Shown here: piece by piece, positions 6,398 to 14,560 of the stretch | How positions within the stretch are numbered: the stretch's first letter is position 1 | Layout of the letters: each line of letters begins with the position of its first letter | NCBI RefSeq assembly: GCF_004087835.1 | Contig: NZ_CP035119.1 | Location: 1,550,001 to 1,614,000 of the forward strand | Origin: Halorussus pelagicus | GTDB taxonomy: Archaea > Halobacteriota > Halobacteria > Halobacteriales > Haladaptataceae | DNA: 64,000 bases | Reading direction: 5' to 3' | The notes under the pieces: generated by a model | The model's database searches: none | What the model saw: the letters and a program-made list of their open reading frames with translations, nothing else | Told to the model about the DNA's origin: nothing | Made by a program: the position numbers and the translations under genes

Positions 6398-6527
6398 GCG
6401 TCCGCTCGCATCGAATCGTTTTCGCCGCTGCCTCCGCGTTGCTCACGACCAGACTGTTTCTCCGCGTGGATAGCGTCGAGTGCGCCAAATCTCTCCACGG
6501 ATAGATGTAGAGATTATTTCAACAAAT

Positions 6528-6577
6528 ATATAAAAAAATATCATATAAAAATAAGGTGTAAAGTTTTATTTCTACAC
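6528..6577 (+). promoter_or_regulatory. AT-rich promoter and small palindrome before the halocin-like gene
   Basis: A very AT-rich block (TATATAAAAAAATA from about 6528; TTTTATTT at 6564-6571, about 27 bases before ATG 6595) in otherwise GC-rich DNA. The second box fits a leaderless start. It is embedded in an inverted repeat, GTGTA (6556-6560) and TACAC (6573-6577), with a 12-base spacer, a plausible operator covering the TATA box. Confidence 0.55.
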
Positions 6578-6594
6578 TTTCTACTAAAAATTGC

Positions 6595-7461
6595 ATGTCC
6601 GATAATGGGCCAAGTAGACGAAGCGTACTGAAAGGTATGGGCAGTGCTGGCGTCGCTGGCGTCGCGGGGACGTTCTCGGCTTCCATCGCCGCGGCCGAGG
6701 GTCCCGAGCAGGACCCGATTACGATGCTGGAGAAGGGCCGCAAGATGGCCCTCGCCCGCAAACTCTCCCGCACCCAGCAGTTCGACGACCTGATAGAGGT
6801 CGCCAACGAGAAGGGCTACGGGTTCTCGTGGGACCTCGACAACCTCGACGCCGCGCGGGTCGAAGCCGGTGACTTCCGGCGCGAACTCGTCGCGTACAAC
6901 TTCGAGACCGAAGGCGACCACCGCGCGGCCGTCGTCGTTGGCAGGGACCTCGATACCGAGGCCGTCGAACTGGCCCAACTCGACTTCGAGTATTACCGAG
7001 AGGACGGCGTCCTCGACCGAACCGAACGCTACGAGGCGGCGACGCAGGTCGAGGCGACCCAACTCGGCAAGGAGACGACCGACAGCGGCGTCACCCACCG
7101 GACCATCCGGCCCGACCCCGACGCCATCAAGTCGTTCATCAACGAGGATGTCAACGCCACCGACTGGAACGACTTCCCGGACTATCTGAACATCAGCTAC
7201 TGTAGCGGCTGTTACTGGGCGGCCAACAAGACCTGCCGACTGCTCTGTAGCACGGTCGGGGCGTTCGCTTGCGGCGCGCTCGGCGTCACCGTCGTCGGTG
7301 CCGTCTCCTGCGTCACCTTCGTCAAGGGCGTCTGCTACGTCGTCAACTACGTCAGCGGCTGTGGCGACGACCTCGGAGCGACCATCTGTAAGGGCGGCCT
7401 GAACGTCTGCGACGACGACGCGTCCGGCGACATCGTCAACGTGGATATCCCGTACTTCTGA
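6595..7461 (+). CDS. Halocin C8-like precursor (immunity/leader part plus C-terminal microhalocin)
   Basis: 288 residues. A Tat leader (RRSVLKG, residues 8-14, hydrophobic to about 33) is followed by an acidic domain to about 197, then a hydrophobic ten-cysteine module (Cys 203, 206, 214, 218, 226, 239, 247, 256, 265, 272). From memory, halocin C8 has the same arrangement: CSxC, AA-xxx-C, xxxCS, G-x-F-x-CG-x-LG, SC, FV-xx-VC, SGCGD, then a final Cys. All intervals match except two that differ by one residue. In the C8 precursor the N-terminal part is the immunity protein HalI and the C-terminal 76 residues are the secreted antimicrobial; total lengths are close (283 and 288). Here an extra tail of about 16 residues follows the last Cys. 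Cleavage would be near residue 196. Confidence 0.88.
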   Translation: MSDNGPSRRSVLKGMGSAGVAGVAGTFSASIAAAEGPEQDPITMLEKGRKMALARKLSRTQQFDDLIEVANEKGYGFSWDLDNLDAARVEAGDFRRELVAYNFETEGDHRAAVVVGRDLDTEAVELAQLDFEYYREDGVLDRTERYEAATQVEATQLGKETTDSGVTHRTIRPDPDAIKSFINEDVNATDWNDFPDYLNISYCSGCYWAANKTCRLLCSTVGAFACGALGVTVVGAVSCVTFVKGVCYVVNYVSGCGDDLGATICKGGLNVCDDDASGDIVNVDIPYF

Positions 7462-7481
7462 GCGACGGACAGTCGCTTTTT
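7461..7481 (+). terminator. Intrinsic-type terminator of the halocin-like gene
   Basis: AGCGAC, a five-base loop GGACA, then GTCGCT and a run of five T. The stem begins on the last base of the TGA stop codon, so transcription probably ends immediately after the gene and before the convergent membrane-protein gene. Confidence 0.6.
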
Positions 7482-7551: not shown

Positions 7552-8271
7552 CTACGCGAGCGCGAACAGTCCCGCACCGACGACCAAGAACGTGAGCGCC
7601 GCGACGAGCGGAAACGCCGCCGCTCGCAGGCGACCGAGCGCGACCGCTCCCGGCGATCCGTCGGCTATCACGGACGGATTCGTGAGGACGACGCGGCCGT
7701 CTCGGTACTCGGGGCGGCCCGCGACGACGTGGGACTTCTCCGGGTCGATTCGGCGCTCGGTGTACCGCCGCGCTCCGATACCGAGCGACGCGAGGGGACC
7801 GCCCGCGGTGGGCGAGAGTTCGCCGCGCGCTTCCACGAACGCCCGGATTCGCTCGGGCGGTTCCTCGCCCGCCGAGACGCTGATGGTCTCGCTCTCGGTG
7901 TCGAGTCGGAAGCGTCTTGATTCGGGGGCAACTCGGACGCGGCCGCCGTCGTCGCGCAACTCGAAGGGGACCGTCGCCACGCCGTCGTCGCGGTGACCCC
8001 ACGTAAACGGAATTTCGGTCGCCGTGAGTTCGCGCTCGCTGATTTCGTATTCGAGACCGAGACAGTTCTTTCCGGTGAACGGCCCACTCAGCGTCTCGCC
8101 GACCGATTGGGTCCGGCCGCGACAGACGACGAACTCGTCGTCGGAACTCACGGACGCCGGGCCGACGACCTCCGTCCGCACGAGTCGCGGAACGACCGCG
8201 AGCGGTCGGAGACCGTACCACCCGAACGCGACGCCCCCGAGCAGGAAGACGACCCCGAGTACGGTAAGCAT
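7552..8271 (-). CDS. GIDE-domain membrane protein
   Basis: 239 residues with an N-terminal membrane helix (MLTVLGVVFLLGGVAFGWYG) and a second at the C-terminus (AFPLVAALTFLVVGAGLFAL). Between them is a GIDE-like module: GPFTGKNCLGLEYEISERE, then a TW segment, then VPFELRDDGGRVRVAPE. This matches the GIDE domain of mitochondrial MULAN-type ligases and their prokaryotic relatives, without any RING finger. It lies 27 bases after the methylase stop on the same strand, so it is probably the last gene of the restriction-modification operon. Function in archaea is unknown. Confidence 0.72.
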   Translation of the reverse strand: MLTVLGVVFLLGGVAFGWYGLRPLAVVPRLVRTEVVGPASVSSDDEFVVCRGRTQSVGETLSGPFTGKNCLGLEYEISERELTATEIPFTWGHRDDGVATVPFELRDDGGRVRVAPESRRFRLDTESETISVSAGEEPPERIRAFVEARGELSPTAGGPLASLGIGARRYTERRIDPEKSHVVAGRPEYRDGRVVLTNPSVIADGSPGAVALGRLRAAAFPLVAALTFLVVGAGLFALA

Positions 8272-8298: not shown

Positions 8299-10545
8299 TC
8301 AAGTATCTTCGGCTCGGAATAAACTCTCGCCGTCGTCGGCCAGCGCCTCCTCGACGAGGCGGTCGATTTCGGCTTGGACGGTCTCCAACTCGGGTATCGT
8401 CTTCCGGTTGTAGGCGCGCTTGGAGGTGTCTGTGTGTTCGGGCACGATGTCGTGGGCCTGCATCGAAAGGTCGGCGAGTCGTCGCTGTCGCTCGGTCCCC
8501 CGCCACTCGGGGAGTTGAAGATTCGAGACGACCGATTTCGAGAGGCTAGCCTTCCCCTCCGAAGCGACGTGTTTCAGCGACCGCTGGTAGGTCGCCGAGT
8601 TGAGCAGGGCACAGAGGAAGTGGGCCTCCCGCTCGCCGTCGGCCGAAATGAACATGAAGTGGTCGCCGGGCACGACCTGCTTCTGGCCCAAATCTGCGTC
8701 CTCGACGGTCGAGACGACCGCGAAATGGGGCTTGAACCCGAGGCGACACCACGCGACCTTGTACTCGCTCCACGTATACTCGCCCAGTCCGAAGACGTTG
8801 TAGAACGGTCCCTTGTCGAGCCACGACGACGACCGGGATTCGAGCGCGTCGCGGTGCGTTTCGAGGTAGTCGTAGGTCTTCGGATACCGCTCACGCAGTT
8901 CCTTTTCGTTGTCCTCGTTGGCCTTCCGGAGCGGAACCAGTCGCAGTTCGTGGCCGAACAGGCCGTACTTGACGACGTGGCGCGACTTGACGTAGGGGTA
9001 GACGAACTCGTCTTCGAGGTCGGCCAGTTCCTCGCGCTCGACGGAGAAGACGGCTTGGGCGTCGTCCTTGACGCCGTGGCGAATCTCGTGGGCGCACTCG
9101 CCGAGCGCCGCGTGCTCGGCGTCCGCGCGGACCCACGCCGACGCCTCCTCGTCGGCGTCCACCGGGACGAGCGCGGTCTCTTCGCGGTCGAGCGTCCGGC
9201 GCATTGACGCTCGCGTGGCGAAGTCGGCGGGGTCGTCGCGCTCGCTGGCGGTCCACGAAACCGTCTCGACGGGGAACTCGTGGTCGGCGTCGGCCCGGAG
9301 CGCGTAGACGGCGGCGTTCGCGCCGACCTGCTCGCCGAAGGGTCGGAGTCGGTTGAAGTCGTGGACCGCTTCGAGCGCGAGCGGTCGTTCGTCCACACTC
9401 AGCGTTCGGAGAAGTTTGCCCGCAGGTCCCTTCGAGACGGCGCGCTTCAGGACGAAACTCGCCCCGCCGCCCGCGTCCAGATAGCGGTCGATACAGACCC
9501 AGACGAACGGCAGGGAGATGTCGTCGTTGGCGTGGCCCAACCGCGAGGCGGTCCCGTCGTGGGGGAGTAGATCGAGTTCGTCGCCGCGCTCGCGCCAGCC
9601 AGCTTTCACGGTCTCCGAGAGGCGACTCCACGGAATCCACGGCGGGTTCCCGACGAGGTAGTCGGCGGCGGGGTCGAACTCCTCGCCCCGGAACGAAATC
9701 CGGTCGTCGCGGGTCAGACCGACAGCGTCGGTCAGAAAGACCGGGAGTTCGACGCGCTCGGTCTCGGCCGCGTCGAGGACGGGCAACAGCGAGAGCAGGT
9801 AGTTCAGTTTCGTACTCGTGACCGCGACCGGATTCAGGTCGATGCCGAAGACGCTCGACGTGACGTTGGCCACGATTTCGTCGGGGGAGTGGGTGTCCTC
9901 CAGCGCCGCAATCTTGCGCTCGATGCAGACCGACGGAAACACGCCCGACCCGCATCCGGGGTCGAGAAACGTCGCGTCCGCGAACTCCTCGACGCCGAGT
10001 GCGTCCACCGCGAGTTCGGCGACGCCTCGCGGGGTGTGGTACTCCCCGAGCGCGAGGCGGAGGTCCCGAGAGACGACGCCCTCGTAGAGTCGCCGGAGAA
10101 AGCCGGTGTCGGCCGCCCGGAGGTCGGCCCTCGTGAGCGCGTCCTCGATTGGGTCGGGGACGCGCCCGTCGAGGTCGGCGAGTTCGCTCACGACGCGGTC
10201 GTGCAACGCCCGGAAGCGAACCGACAGCGCGCCGGTGTTCGCCCGCGGTTCCCGATTGGCCAGCGCGAACCCGAACTCGCGCTCGGCGAGCGCGACGATG
10301 CGGTCCACCACGAAGTCGTAGTACAGCGAGTCCACGAACAGTTCGTCGGTCGGTCGCTCGCCCGCGGCGCTCGGGCGCTCTACGTCCGCGAGGGCGTCGC
10401 CGTGGCTGGTCTCGAAGAACGTCTCCCACTCCGAGCGGGCGGTCCGAAACCGCTCGTCGCTCGCCAGCAGGTCGCGCGCGACGTCGCGGTAGGCCTCGTA
10501 CAGCGCGCTCTCGCGGCCCCACCGCTCGGCGATGTCGGCCGTCAT
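8299..10545 (-). CDS. N6-adenine DNA methylase (Eco57I-like family)
   Basis: 748 residues. The SAM-binding motif I is FLDPGCGSGVF (about 193-203), followed by GIDLNPVAVTSTKLNYLL (motif II/III region) and the catalytic motif IV NPPW (about 300-303), the signature of gamma-type adenine methylases. Later segments (DHFMFISADGEREAHFLCALLNS, SLSKSVVSNLQLPEW) resemble target-recognition regions of type I/IIG proteins. I see no nuclease motif at its N-terminus. It begins two bases after the stop of the large RM protein, so the two are translated from one message. It may methylate the second strand, broaden specificity, or be a separate enzyme. Confidence 0.86.
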   Translation of the reverse strand: MTADIAERWGRESALYEAYRDVARDLLASDERFRTARSEWETFFETSHGDALADVERPSAAGERPTDELFVDSLYYDFVVDRIVALAEREFGFALANREPRANTGALSVRFRALHDRVVSELADLDGRVPDPIEDALTRADLRAADTGFLRRLYEGVVSRDLRLALGEYHTPRGVAELAVDALGVEEFADATFLDPGCGSGVFPSVCIERKIAALEDTHSPDEIVANVTSSVFGIDLNPVAVTSTKLNYLLSLLPVLDAAETERVELPVFLTDAVGLTRDDRISFRGEEFDPAADYLVGNPPWIPWSRLSETVKAGWRERGDELDLLPHDGTASRLGHANDDISLPFVWVCIDRYLDAGGGASFVLKRAVSKGPAGKLLRTLSVDERPLALEAVHDFNRLRPFGEQVGANAAVYALRADADHEFPVETVSWTASERDDPADFATRASMRRTLDREETALVPVDADEEASAWVRADAEHAALGECAHEIRHGVKDDAQAVFSVEREELADLEDEFVYPYVKSRHVVKYGLFGHELRLVPLRKANEDNEKELRERYPKTYDYLETHRDALESRSSSWLDKGPFYNVFGLGEYTWSEYKVAWCRLGFKPHFAVVSTVEDADLGQKQVVPGDHFMFISADGEREAHFLCALLNSATYQRSLKHVASEGKASLSKSVVSNLQLPEWRGTERQRRLADLSMQAHDIVPEHTDTSKRAYNRKTIPELETVQAEIDRLVEEALADDGESLFRAEDT

Positions 10546-10547
10546 GG

Positions 10548-13500
10548 TCAGTCCATCGGCCCGCGCTCGGCCAGTTCGTCGTAGGTCTCAGCCACGAGGT
10601 CGAAATACTCCTCGGTCATCATCCGCGGGTCGCGCACCCGGTGGAAGTCGTCCAGCACGAACCGGGTCTCCTCGCGGTCGAGTCCGTAGGCGTGGAACGC
10701 CGCGGCGTCGATTTCGGCTTGGAGACGCTGGCGCTCGTCGGGGTCGGTCGCGGCGTCGATGCCGCCCAACCGCTCGCGCATCTCCGCGAACTGCTCGCCG
10801 TAGCAGTTGAGGCGCGCCGCGCGATGGGAGATGTATTCGAACCAGTCGTCGCCCGAGGTGAGGCGGGGGACTTGAGATTCTTTGAATTTATACTGGACAA
10901 TACTTGAGTCGATTTTTGTCCTCATTAGGAAGTCAAACGGAATGCTATTGAGTAGTCCCAACGCTACGAATAGTTCTTTATCGGTGAATATTCGGTTGTA
11001 AGCGCCGTGAAGACGCTTCTTCTGGAGATGTTTTTCTTCCGGTTGAATTGAGTACGGCCGAAGAGTAGGTAATTTGTGGTAGCTTATTACTCCCTTCGGG
11101 ATTATTGCGGCAATCATCGTCCGCTCGTCAGTTGAACGAGCGATTTCTCGGTAAGCAAGCCGGTACTCTGTGCAGTCAAGAAGAACGTCTTCTTCGGTTA
11201 ATGGTTCTCCTCGCTCGTCTTCTAATAGGTCGTTTACAAACTGCTTCTGGGACTTGCTGGTCTTTTCTCCACCGAACTCGTCGTAAACCGACCGCTTCAA
11301 ATCTGGAAGGTTCTTTTCTCGAATTCGCTGTTTTCCACTCTTTTCAGGGTCCGTTTCCTCACTAACACTCCAGAAGTTAGGAGATTCTAAATCGTCTACG
11401 AAATCCGGAGAATAAGAGTACTGATAGACATTCCTACCGCCAAGAACAGGGTAGTCTCCGTTATATTTCTCTTCGACAAGCCGATCAGAATCTTGGGATA
11501 AGTGTAGTTCGGTATAGGGGTCAGCGTACCATTTTTCTCCGCTTTGTTCACCTATAGCCGGGTTCTTGAGTACTTTTTCTAGAACGTCAGTTTCTTTTCC
11601 GGAGTTAACGCTGGGGAATATACTCGCTTCTGGTGAGAAGTTTCCAAGAACTGTTTTGCTGATGCTGATTGCTTCTTCGTCCAGATTTTTGAGTATTCGA
11701 AGATCCTTTTGCACGAACTTCCCCTTGAGAACGTCTGTCTCTCCGGAGTTCTTCAGAACGAGAGTGCCGAAATTGTACCTGTTATCAATATCGTCAAATA
11801 TCCCGTGGTTTTCAAAAGTCACGAGAGAATTCACTCTTGTTTGGTTCAGTAAGTGTTTGCGTAGGTCTTTACAGGAAGCGCCAGTAAATACGACGCCCGG
11901 CAGAACTTGTGAAACGTAACCATCATTGTCAGCCAATTTAAGAACACGTTCTAAAAATAGGGCCGACAAGTCGTTTTCATTGGCGACTGTCCGCCCGGCT
12001 ACTTTCGGAGTTTGCAACTCGTAACTCCCACTCTTTTTAAAGTAGGTAGACCGGATTTTCATCCGCCGCTGATAGTCCTGCCATTTCGGTTGAATTTCTC
12101 TCTCGTCTCTCTCCAAGAGTTCTTTCTGTTTCTGGTCTTTCTCCGAGGGTGTTCGTGTTCGAAAACGACTGTCAAACTGCGAGAAAAAGTCGTCTCGATT
12201 TACTGTCAAAACTTCCCACGGCGGATTCCCCACAATCACGTCGAACCCACCATCACCATACACCTGCGCGAACTCCAAGACCCAGTGGAACGGTTCGTAC
12301 TCCCGGACCTGCTCGACGCCGATGTCCTCGATTCCGGCCTCTTTGAACTCCAACAGCACCTTCTCGTCCAAGTCGTCGCGGTACTGGTCCAGCAGTTCCT
12401 CGGCGTCTTCCAGATACGCCTTGGCCTCCTCGGTGTCGCTGGTTGCCTTGTGCTTCTCGACCAGTTCGATGATGTCGCCGTACTTCTCGCGCACCGTGTC
12501 GGCACCCCACGCGTCGAGGCGCGACTGGTCGCTGTCGGAACTCGTCTCCATCAGGTCGGTGTAGCCGATGAGGCTGTTGCCCTGCCGGACGTTGAACACC
12601 ACGTTCGGGAGCGCCAGTTCCTCGTCGTCGTAGGTGGCCACCTCGTCGGGGTCCACCTCGGTGATGATGGAGAGCCAGAGTCGGAGTTTGGCGATTTCGA
12701 CCGCCGGGTTCACGATGTCCACGCCGTAGACGTTCTGGACGACCGTCTGCTTGTGGAGTTTCCACGTCGGCGGAGTCTCGTCGTGTTTCTCGTAGAGGGC
12801 CTTCCGGATACCGACGAGTTCGCTCTGGACCGAGGTGAGGAAGTGGCCCGACCCACAGGCAGGGTCGAGCGCGCGGAACTCGTCTACCACCGCGAGCAGG
12901 TCCTCGATGAGGTCGGTGTTCGTCTCGGGGAGCGCGTCCACGAGTTCGTACACGTCGTCGTAGTCGGCCATCTCGTCGGTCCAGCCCCATTCGGCGACCA
13001 TTCGGTCGGCGAACCGCTCCAAAAGCGCGGGTTGGACCGTCTCCTCCGCGCAAAAGCGCGTGATTTCGTCGGGCGTGTAGTAGGCTCCCAGTTCCTTCTT
13101 CTGGTCGCCCGCGTCGCCCGTGATGTGGTTGATAGTCTTCTCGAAGACGTTGCCCAGCACGCTCGGGTCGAGGTCGGTCGGCCCGCCGTCCGCCGAGAAG
13201 TCGTGGCGCTCCAGCAGGTCCACGATGGAGAGCAACACCGTGTCGCGCACGTCGAACTCGCGCTCGTTCACGTCGCCGTCCCACTCGCTGGTCGGCCGGA
13301 ATAGGCCACCGTTGAGATACGGCACCTCGCTGTACACGTCGATGTCCCGAATCCGGCCCGTCCGGTCGTCGGGTTTCTCGTCCAAGATGCCGAAAAACAG
13401 CGGTTCGAGATAGGTCTTGTAAAACGTCTCGGGGTTCAGACCGTCGTCGTGGTCCGCCACCAGTTTCCGGAGGAGGTCGGCGTCCACCAGTCGCTTGTCT

Positions 13501-14435
13501 TCGAGGAACTTCAGGAAGACGAGGCGGTTCATCAACCCGACCGCGAACAGTCGCACGTCGTCGCCGGTCGCCGCTTCCGGCGCGATTACGCCGTCGCCGA
13601 CGAGGCTTCGGGTCGTCCGCTCCTCGCCGTCGGGTCGGATGCCGAAGACGTACTGGACGTACTCGTCGTAGAACTCGTCGGTGATTTCGGCTTTCGTCTC
13701 CTTGATGACCGCCCGCGCCTCGCTGGCGATTGAGACGAAGTTCTCGTAGCCGAACGACCGGACGAACGTCTCTACCAGCTCCCGGTCGTCGCCTTCGACC
13801 CACTCGTCCAGTCCGACGTTGCGCCCCGTCTGGTTCTCGAACGCTTTGACGAAGGTCCGCTGGAGGTTCACCTCGGCCAAGGTGTCGTAGCTGTAGGTGT
13901 CGCGGTCGTACTTGACCAGCACCCACCGTAGCCCGTCGGTTGCCAACCCGAAGTTGGCGTCGAACTTCTTGCGGTCGAGCCAGTCTTTGACTTGCCCGAG
14001 TCCGTGGCTCTCTTGGTCGAGTCGCTTGTTCATCGGTTCGGCCTCGACCAGCAGTCGCCCCGAGTCCACGTCGTCGTACTCGGCGAGCGAGAAGGAGTAG
14101 TCCGCCTGCTTGCCTCGTTCGTCCGAGCGGTCGCCCGCCTCGACGGCGGGGTCGGGATAGCCGAGCGCCGCGAACAGCGGTTCGATGACGGTTCGCTTGG
14201 TGATGGGTTCGGGGTCCTCGTTCTCCGCGCTGTCGCGCGCCATCAGCGTCGTGGCTTCGCCGTCTCGGAGCAGTTCTTCGAGTCGGTCGTCACCGACGCT
14301 CTCTCGCAGGTCAGCGACGGCGTCCGAGACCGCGGTTGCGACGCTCTCGATTTGGGACTCCGATACCTCGGTGTCGAACGCTTCGGTGACGAACTCGGTG
14401 GGGACCGAGCGTAAGGGGTTCTCTCGCTCGTTCAT
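10548..14435 (-). CDS. Type IIG-like restriction-modification protein (Eco57I family)
   Basis: 1295 residues, start MNERENPLRSVPTEFV (the open frame extends to 14501 but the extra residues look non-coding). N-terminal part: a PD-(D/E)XK-like nuclease region with Asp112 and VEAEP at 130-134; the usual 'ExK' reads E131-A-E133, so nuclease competence is uncertain. Then a helical linker, the methylase core with motif I LDPACGSGHF (about 522-531), GVDIVNPAVEIAKLRLWL and motif IV NPPW (737-740). Residues about 741-1189 are the presumed target-recognition domain and are encoded by markedly AT-rich DNA. The last 100 residues return to host-like composition. First gene of a three-gene operon. No BREX or DISARM partners are nearby. 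Confidence 0.88.
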   Translation of the reverse strand: MNERENPLRSVPTEFVTEAFDTEVSESQIESVATAVSDAVADLRESVGDDRLEELLRDGEATTLMARDSAENEDPEPITKRTVIEPLFAALGYPDPAVEAGDRSDERGKQADYSFSLAEYDDVDSGRLLVEAEPMNKRLDQESHGLGQVKDWLDRKKFDANFGLATDGLRWVLVKYDRDTYSYDTLAEVNLQRTFVKAFENQTGRNVGLDEWVEGDDRELVETFVRSFGYENFVSIASEARAVIKETKAEITDEFYDEYVQYVFGIRPDGEERTTRSLVGDGVIAPEAATGDDVRLFAVGLMNRLVFLKFLEDKRLVDADLLRKLVADHDDGLNPETFYKTYLEPLFFGILDEKPDDRTGRIRDIDVYSEVPYLNGGLFRPTSEWDGDVNEREFDVRDTVLLSIVDLLERHDFSADGGPTDLDPSVLGNVFEKTINHITGDAGDQKKELGAYYTPDEITRFCAEETVQPALLERFADRMVAEWGWTDEMADYDDVYELVDALPETNTDLIEDLLAVVDEFRALDPACGSGHFLTSVQSELVGIRKALYEKHDETPPTWKLHKQTVVQNVYGVDIVNPAVEIAKLRLWLSIITEVDPDEVATYDDEELALPNVVFNVRQGNSLIGYTDLMETSSDSDQSRLDAWGADTVREKYGDIIELVEKHKATSDTEEAKAYLEDAEELLDQYRDDLDEKVLLEFKEAGIEDIGVEQVREYEPFHWVLEFAQVYGDGGFDVIVGNPPWEVLTVNRDDFFSQFDSRFRTRTPSEKDQKQKELLERDEREIQPKWQDYQRRMKIRSTYFKKSGSYELQTPKVAGRTVANENDLSALFLERVLKLADNDGYVSQVLPGVVFTGASCKDLRKHLLNQTRVNSLVTFENHGIFDDIDNRYNFGTLVLKNSGETDVLKGKFVQKDLRILKNLDEEAISISKTVLGNFSPEASIFPSVNSGKETDVLEKVLKNPAIGEQSGEKWYADPYTELHLSQDSDRLVEEKYNGDYPVLGGRNVYQYSYSPDFVDDLESPNFWSVSEETDPEKSGKQRIREKNLPDLKRSVYDEFGGEKTSKSQKQFVNDLLEDERGEPLTEEDVLLDCTEYRLAYREIARSTDERTMIAAIIPKGVISYHKLPTLRPYSIQPEEKHLQKKRLHGAYNRIFTDKELFVALGLLNSIPFDFLMRTKIDSSIVQYKFKESQVPRLTSGDDWFEYISHRAARLNCYGEQFAEMRERLGGIDAATDPDERQRLQAEIDAAAFHAYGLDREETRFVLDDFHRVRDPRMMTEEYFDLVAETYDELAERGPMD
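10870..12215 (-). other. AT-rich target-recognition segment inside the type IIG gene
   Basis: Base composition shifts sharply to AT-rich just after the codons of the catalytic NPPW motif (12216-12227) and returns to GC-rich near 10870, still within the same open frame. The encoded stretch is rich in Lys, Asn, Ile, Phe and Ser, unlike the acidic host proteins. The placement matches the specificity domain of type IIG enzymes, suggesting replacement by recombination from a lower-GC donor. Confidence 0.7.
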
Positions 14436-14560
14436 GGTGAACCTCGAAGACCGCAGGGTACTGGTGATACTGGTTCGGCCCTCCCACATAAATTCACGCA
14501 ACTAACTTCGCTGGCCGCTACCGACTGTTTTAAACCACTCACCCCACTTTACCCTCAATA

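Follow-up and report, generated by a model that had tools for sequence, protein, structure and literature searches.

A predicted halocin C8-type precursor of Halorussus pelagicus from a tailed sister clade of halocin C8

Regulator and transporter genes have been mentioned in the literature from the vicinity of halocin C8, and the C8 family was reportedly enlarged by Makarova and colleagues in 2019. The C8 precursor is 283 aa long and yields a C-terminal peptide of 76 aa (PMC11509114), one gene making both toxin and immunity (Sun et al. 2005, as cited in PMC11509114). According to Mei et al. (2008), again as cited in PMC11509114, immunity requires a helix-loop-helix of HalI. The family has also been reported in Halorussus (Besse et al. 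2017, as cited in PMC11509114). The family, its occurrence in this genus and its annotation in public records are already known.

We have analysed a window of 64,000 nucleotides from Halorussus pelagicus (contig NZ_CP035119.1, positions 1,550,001 to 1,614,000), which contains a gene of this kind. Its features are given below in window positions, with residues numbered along the precursor:

6500..6594, plus strand: A+T-rich upstream region (80% A+T); a TATA-like motif, TTTTAT, occupies 6564-6569 and precedes the ATG by about 25 nt
6595-7461, plus strand: halocin C8-like precursor gene, an ORF of 288 aa plus stop; four more genomes of Halorussus have orthologs, and other families have distant members
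6595..6696, plus strand: putative Tat-type leader, residues 1-34, with RR at 8-9 and AAA ahead of the predicted cut
6733..6810, plus strand: helix-loop-helix predicted by AlphaFold2 at the start of the N-terminal domain, helices 47-58 and 61-72
6739..7038, plus strand: HalI-type N-terminal domain PF22862 (Hac8_like_N), residues 49-148, the proposed immunity/inhibitory part
7039..7182, plus strand: variable linker, residues 149-196, the fastest-evolving part, with the presumed maturation cut at a position inferred from C8
7183..7410, plus strand: predicted halocin core, residues 197-272, with ten cysteines (TIGR04449 and cysteine gaps)
7411..7458, plus strand: C-terminal tail DDDASGDIVNVDIPYF, 16 residues past the tenth cysteine, clade-defining
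7460..7478, plus strand: terminator-like hairpin followed by a T-rich stretch, not above chance
7552..8271, minus strand: convergent GIDE-like membrane protein (PF12483), 239 aa, with two terminal TM segments

Along with these, two neighbouring genes on the minus strand of the window (8299-14501) match DNA methylases, one of 748 aa (PF02384, just over the cut-off) and one of 1317 aa (Eco57I-type restriction-modification, PF07669).

A first-pass annotation, made from the letters alone, had placed the gene in the C8 family, and on this point the curated models, the alignment with the C8 precursor and the tree all agree. What it had described as an acidic middle domain is PF22862 (83.4 bits, E 2e-23, gathering cut-off 27), and the hydrophobic module with ten cysteines was recovered by TIGR04449 at 32 bits (E 2e-7, curated cut-off 24), with residues 203-272 covering the full model (positions 1-69). 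The Tat leader proposed at that stage remains a prediction: the RR pair would open a Tat-type leader and is invariant, together with A32 and A33, among 11 members of the tailed clade, but the generic Tat models scored just under their cut-offs (TIGR01409, 13.8 bits, cut-off 16.7; PF10518, 16.3 bits, cut-off 22.7). For comparison, we take the sequence of locus L067 (genome G034) to be that of the published halocin C8 peptide. The window protein shares 36% identity with the L067 precursor over 275 residues (E 4e-47), and the agreement in length holds (288 and 283 aa). The 283 aa of L067, with a C-terminal peptide of 76 aa, match the lengths in PMC11509114. Since the curated cut-offs were passed and four other genomes of Halorussus have orthologs, 75–84% identical, at the corresponding site, the family match is not due to chance. 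No relative with a solved structure was detected by sequence search at E < 0.1, and no relative was found in viral contigs and phage records. A protein-only query against the genome contigs returned no match; a query with the alignment led to five named loci.

The cysteine gaps are 2,7,3,7,12,7,8,8,6 in the window gene and 2,7,3,7,13,7,8,8,5 in the C8 precursor (L036 and L067), that is, seven of the nine are the same and two are shifted by one residue, exactly as had been noticed, and in the alignment the spacing is C8-like. In C8 sensu stricto the mature peptide ends at the tenth cysteine; here, 16 further residues are encoded. An extension of about this length had been noted as a difference from C8, and it is present, but it is conserved clade-wide and is not private to this gene. 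Residues D284, I285 and P286 do not vary among the 11 aligned rows, and a D-I-P-type tail was also found in the Halorussus orthologs, Haloferax larsenii, Halobacterium plasmids, Natrinema thermotolerans, Haloterrigena salina and further genomes of the order. In a tree of 41 precursors, for which the tail was left out of the alignment, all 13 tailed rows formed one monophyletic clade (support 97/95), sister to the C8 clade (99/96), and the tail appeared as a single change. As all tailed rows fall into one clade and a single change suffices, the tail is a character of the clade and not an accident of the window gene.

A second tailed C8-like gene, 41% identical, is located in the same genome at G000:C1:2302822-2303682 (L002/L015), with neither P68 nor P75 (see below) nearby. 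On plasmids of Halobacterium salinarum NRC-34001 the reading frame of a tailed halocin is interrupted by an insertion sequence of ISH30 type (L121:6028-8813), and other Halobacterium plasmids have intact copies. Furthermore, two Halorussus proteins of approx. 680 aa (L098:3636-5684, minus strand; L099:2059-4113, plus strand) combine a Tat-type leader and a long middle part with a C-terminal halocin C8 domain and are unusually large C8-type precursors; in the former, the middle part gave no significant Pfam match.

The A+T-rich region with its TTTTAT motif would fit a leaderless haloarchaeal promoter, and most orthologs are also preceded by A+T-rich regions of a similar kind. Of the 'AT-rich palindromic promoter' described earlier, the A+T richness stands and the palindrome does not, its inverted-repeat content being equalled by 245 of 300 shuffled sequences and no palindrome being evident by eye upstream of the orthologs. 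The 'intrinsic-type terminator' was set aside as evidence as well, with one hairpin-plus-T match found and 1.0 expected by chance. That the gene looks functional had been concluded from these two signals, both of which are at chance level; what speaks for function is the existence of orthologs and the selection acting on them. Across the five Halorussus orthologs, each from a different species, dN/dS was 0.23 for the whole coding sequence, with all ten cysteines kept, and by part it was 0.09 for residues 197-266, 0.17 for residues 267-288 (tail and last cysteine), 0.25 for the N-terminal domain and 0.44 for linker residues 151-196. The coding sequence is under purifying selection.

The halocin gene occupies one chromosomal site, between an AMP-ligase gene and the GIDE-like gene, in five of 18 Halorussus genomes. 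At the same site in the remaining 13, the GIDE gene alone was found in one (G015) and neither gene in 12. The carriers are scattered on the ligase tree, where at least four changes are needed, and the identities among orthologs (75–84% for the halocin, 80–88% for the ligase) fit vertical descent with repeated loss. Such a patchy distribution, with its four or more changes, resembles that of genes of antagonism. We regard the gene as real and as probably a working weapon gene of the known halocin C8 type, not a new kind.

The reading that we prefer, with a probability of roughly 0.75, is that the gene encodes the precursor of a halocin C8-type peptide antibiotic, which would be exported through Tat and cleaved to give a killing peptide, with the N-terminal domain serving self-protection. 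Export, cleavage, killing and self-immunity are carried over from halocin C8. The folded precursor of 288 residues would leave the cell by the Tat pathway, and an extracellular protease would cut the linker near residue 196, freeing a hydrophobic peptide rich in disulphides, about 76 residues long, together with the 16-residue tail. This peptide would kill related haloarchaea, presumably at the membrane, and the HalI-type domain would protect the producer by binding or masking it. More speculatively, the tail, with the alternating polar and hydrophobic residues of IVNVDI and the invariant D-I-P, might act as an edge strand docking on a partner, either the HalI domain of the precursor or the target. 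The secreted serine protease HlyR4 activates halocin HalH4, and the protease of C8 is not known (PMC12893001). There are 13 Peptidase_S8 matches in the H. pelagicus genome, and proteins of this kind could be the source of the maturation protease.

The AlphaFold2 model shows the helix-loop-helix with pLDDT 85–92 over most of its length, followed by a strand-rich part. An immunity role of the N-terminal part is plausible, given its homology to the HalI region of C8 and the predicted helix-loop-helix. The core and tail reached block pLDDT values of 22–54 in the precursor model and a mean pLDDT of 41 when modelled alone; as AlphaFold2 resolves neither of them, the docking of the tail is without structural support. 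Fold searches started from the precursor model returned nothing of use: the best Foldseek match had E 0.026, short of the threshold of E ≤ 0.001, and the best VIA Z was 4.2.

Around the tailed halocins outside Halorussus, two families of small proteins with two TM segments, P68 and P75, were found. Both are near the halocin in Haloferax, Halobacterium, G373, Haloterrigena salina (contig 27) and G331, and P68 alone in G087 and in Natrinema thermotolerans, in the latter 2.3 kb off. Genes of these families were located as follows:

L118:6953-7159, plus strand: P68/P75 family gene
L118:5680-5907, minus strand: P68/P75 family gene
L177:10249-10461, plus strand: P68/P75 family gene
L177:12087-12311, minus strand: P68/P75 family gene

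Both families have relatives at the C8 loci. The P75-like genes there are divergent (E 8e-12 to 1e-5) and the P68-like genes match more weakly (E 3e-4 to 0.03); they lie beside the gene for a 534-aa membrane protein, and an HTH regulator adjoins the halocin. The P68 and P75 pair was also detected without a nearby halocin (G248, L200), and P75 alone elsewhere; these halocin-free genes behave as immunity genes might. In the 18 Halorussus genomes no match to P68 or P75 was obtained (E ≤ 0.01), and within the 64-kb window phmmer and hmmsearch recovered no homolog of the HTH regulator, the 534-aa protein, P68 or P75.

Among more distant C8-like families, 16 of the 21 precursors with a weak or no PF22862 match are followed directly, on the same strand, by a small gene with two to four TM segments, a count which is not a formal test, since the rows share ancestry and only four changes occur on the tree. 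A downstream small gene with at least two TM segments was found for none of the ten precursors with a strong PF22862 match and for 3 of 141 control genes. We considered a clean split into one-gene and two-gene systems and had to soften it, the partners P68 and P75 of the strong class lying upstream, convergent or further off. The conservation of the P68 and P75 genes near most relatives, and in divergent form near C8, suggests that the one-gene picture of immunity may be incomplete in general, and the small membrane proteins encoded near most relatives outside Halorussus may be what really confers immunity in this family.

It should be noted that the H. pelagicus genome has a third C8-like gene, an untailed one (G000:C1; L011:1483-2253, minus strand), and that 15 bp downstream of it a two-TM protein of 83 aa is encoded (L011:1217-1468, minus strand), a candidate dedicated immunity gene.

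A further proposal, which we put forward tentatively and consider less probable than its negation, is that the tailed proteins are a sister class of C8 with a functional D-I-P docking tail, ancestrally partnered by P68 and P75, as also, in divergent form, at the C8 locus; C8 immunity or export would then not be a one-gene affair, and the Halorussus branch would have shed the partners to arrive at a stand-alone toxin-plus-immunity protein.

As none of the 18 Halorussus genomes has P68 or P75, the N-terminal domain is the main candidate for immunity there, and immunity would come either from this domain or from the convergent GIDE-like neighbour. The second possibility, in which the peptide is a halocin and the GIDE-like protein, not the precursor, protects the producer, we regard as unlikely. 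The GIDE gene adjoins the halocin in all five Halorussus carriers and 12 of the 13 other genomes lack both, G015 retains it alone, as an immunity-only strain would, and the protein has two TM segments. However, one deletion can remove adjacent genes together, and the GIDE gene is convergent with the halocin and not co-transcribed. Moreover, of 392 genomes of the order 182 have GIDE homologs, and a check of 24 further homologs showed none with a halocin ORF within approx. 1.5 kb; with homologs so common in the absence of halocins, the neighbour was demoted as a halocin-specific immunity partner. The GIDE assignment itself is below threshold (PF12483, 21 bits, cut-off 23.6).

It is also quite improbable that a secreted C8-like protein has here a present role other than killing, for example in signalling, adhesion or promotion of DNA uptake. 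The last of these is reported for halocin H4 (PMC6759562), and the tailed clade and C8 have different C-termini and cysteine spacing, but the core, and not only the N-terminal domain, is the most constrained part, and a patchy, repeatedly lost distribution is more easily reconciled with a weapon than with a housekeeping role. A decaying remnant kept by chance is very improbable: most Halorussus genomes lack the gene and relatives in H. salinarum NRC-34001 are interrupted, but the frame is intact, all ten cysteines are kept and dN/dS across five species is 0.23 overall and 0.09 in the core.

We found no description of the tailed sister clade or of the loss of partner genes in Halorussus in the literature searched, outside of which lie the key C8 papers. 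The clade and its natural loss of partners offer a ready comparison for the C8 one-gene model. If the Halorussus protein kills and protects alone, that model holds unaided; if a partner is needed, the candidates for immunity would be the small membrane proteins encoded close to C8 and its relatives.

Among known systems, halocin H4 and other HlyR4-activated precursors of Haloferax mediterranei are secreted and proteolytically activated (PMC12893001), a likeness by mechanistic analogy only. The tailed C8-like proteins of Haloferax larsenii and Halobacterium plasmids (e.g. WP_206536420.1) share the clade and the D-I-P tail at 40–44% identity; they are encoded on large plasmids, where P68 follows closely downstream and P75 lies upstream in divergent orientation, whereas the window gene belongs to the main chromosomal contig and has neither. 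Compared with halocin C8 (ProC8/HalC8), the window gene differs in its D-I-P tail, in a C5-C6 gap of 12 instead of 13 and a C9-C10 gap of 6 instead of 5, and in being without the flanking HTH regulator, 534-aa membrane protein, P75-like and P68-like genes, all of which C8 has. It resembles C8 in the putative Tat-type leader, the HalI-type N-terminal domain, the ten cysteines and the nearly equal length, and belongs to its sister clade.
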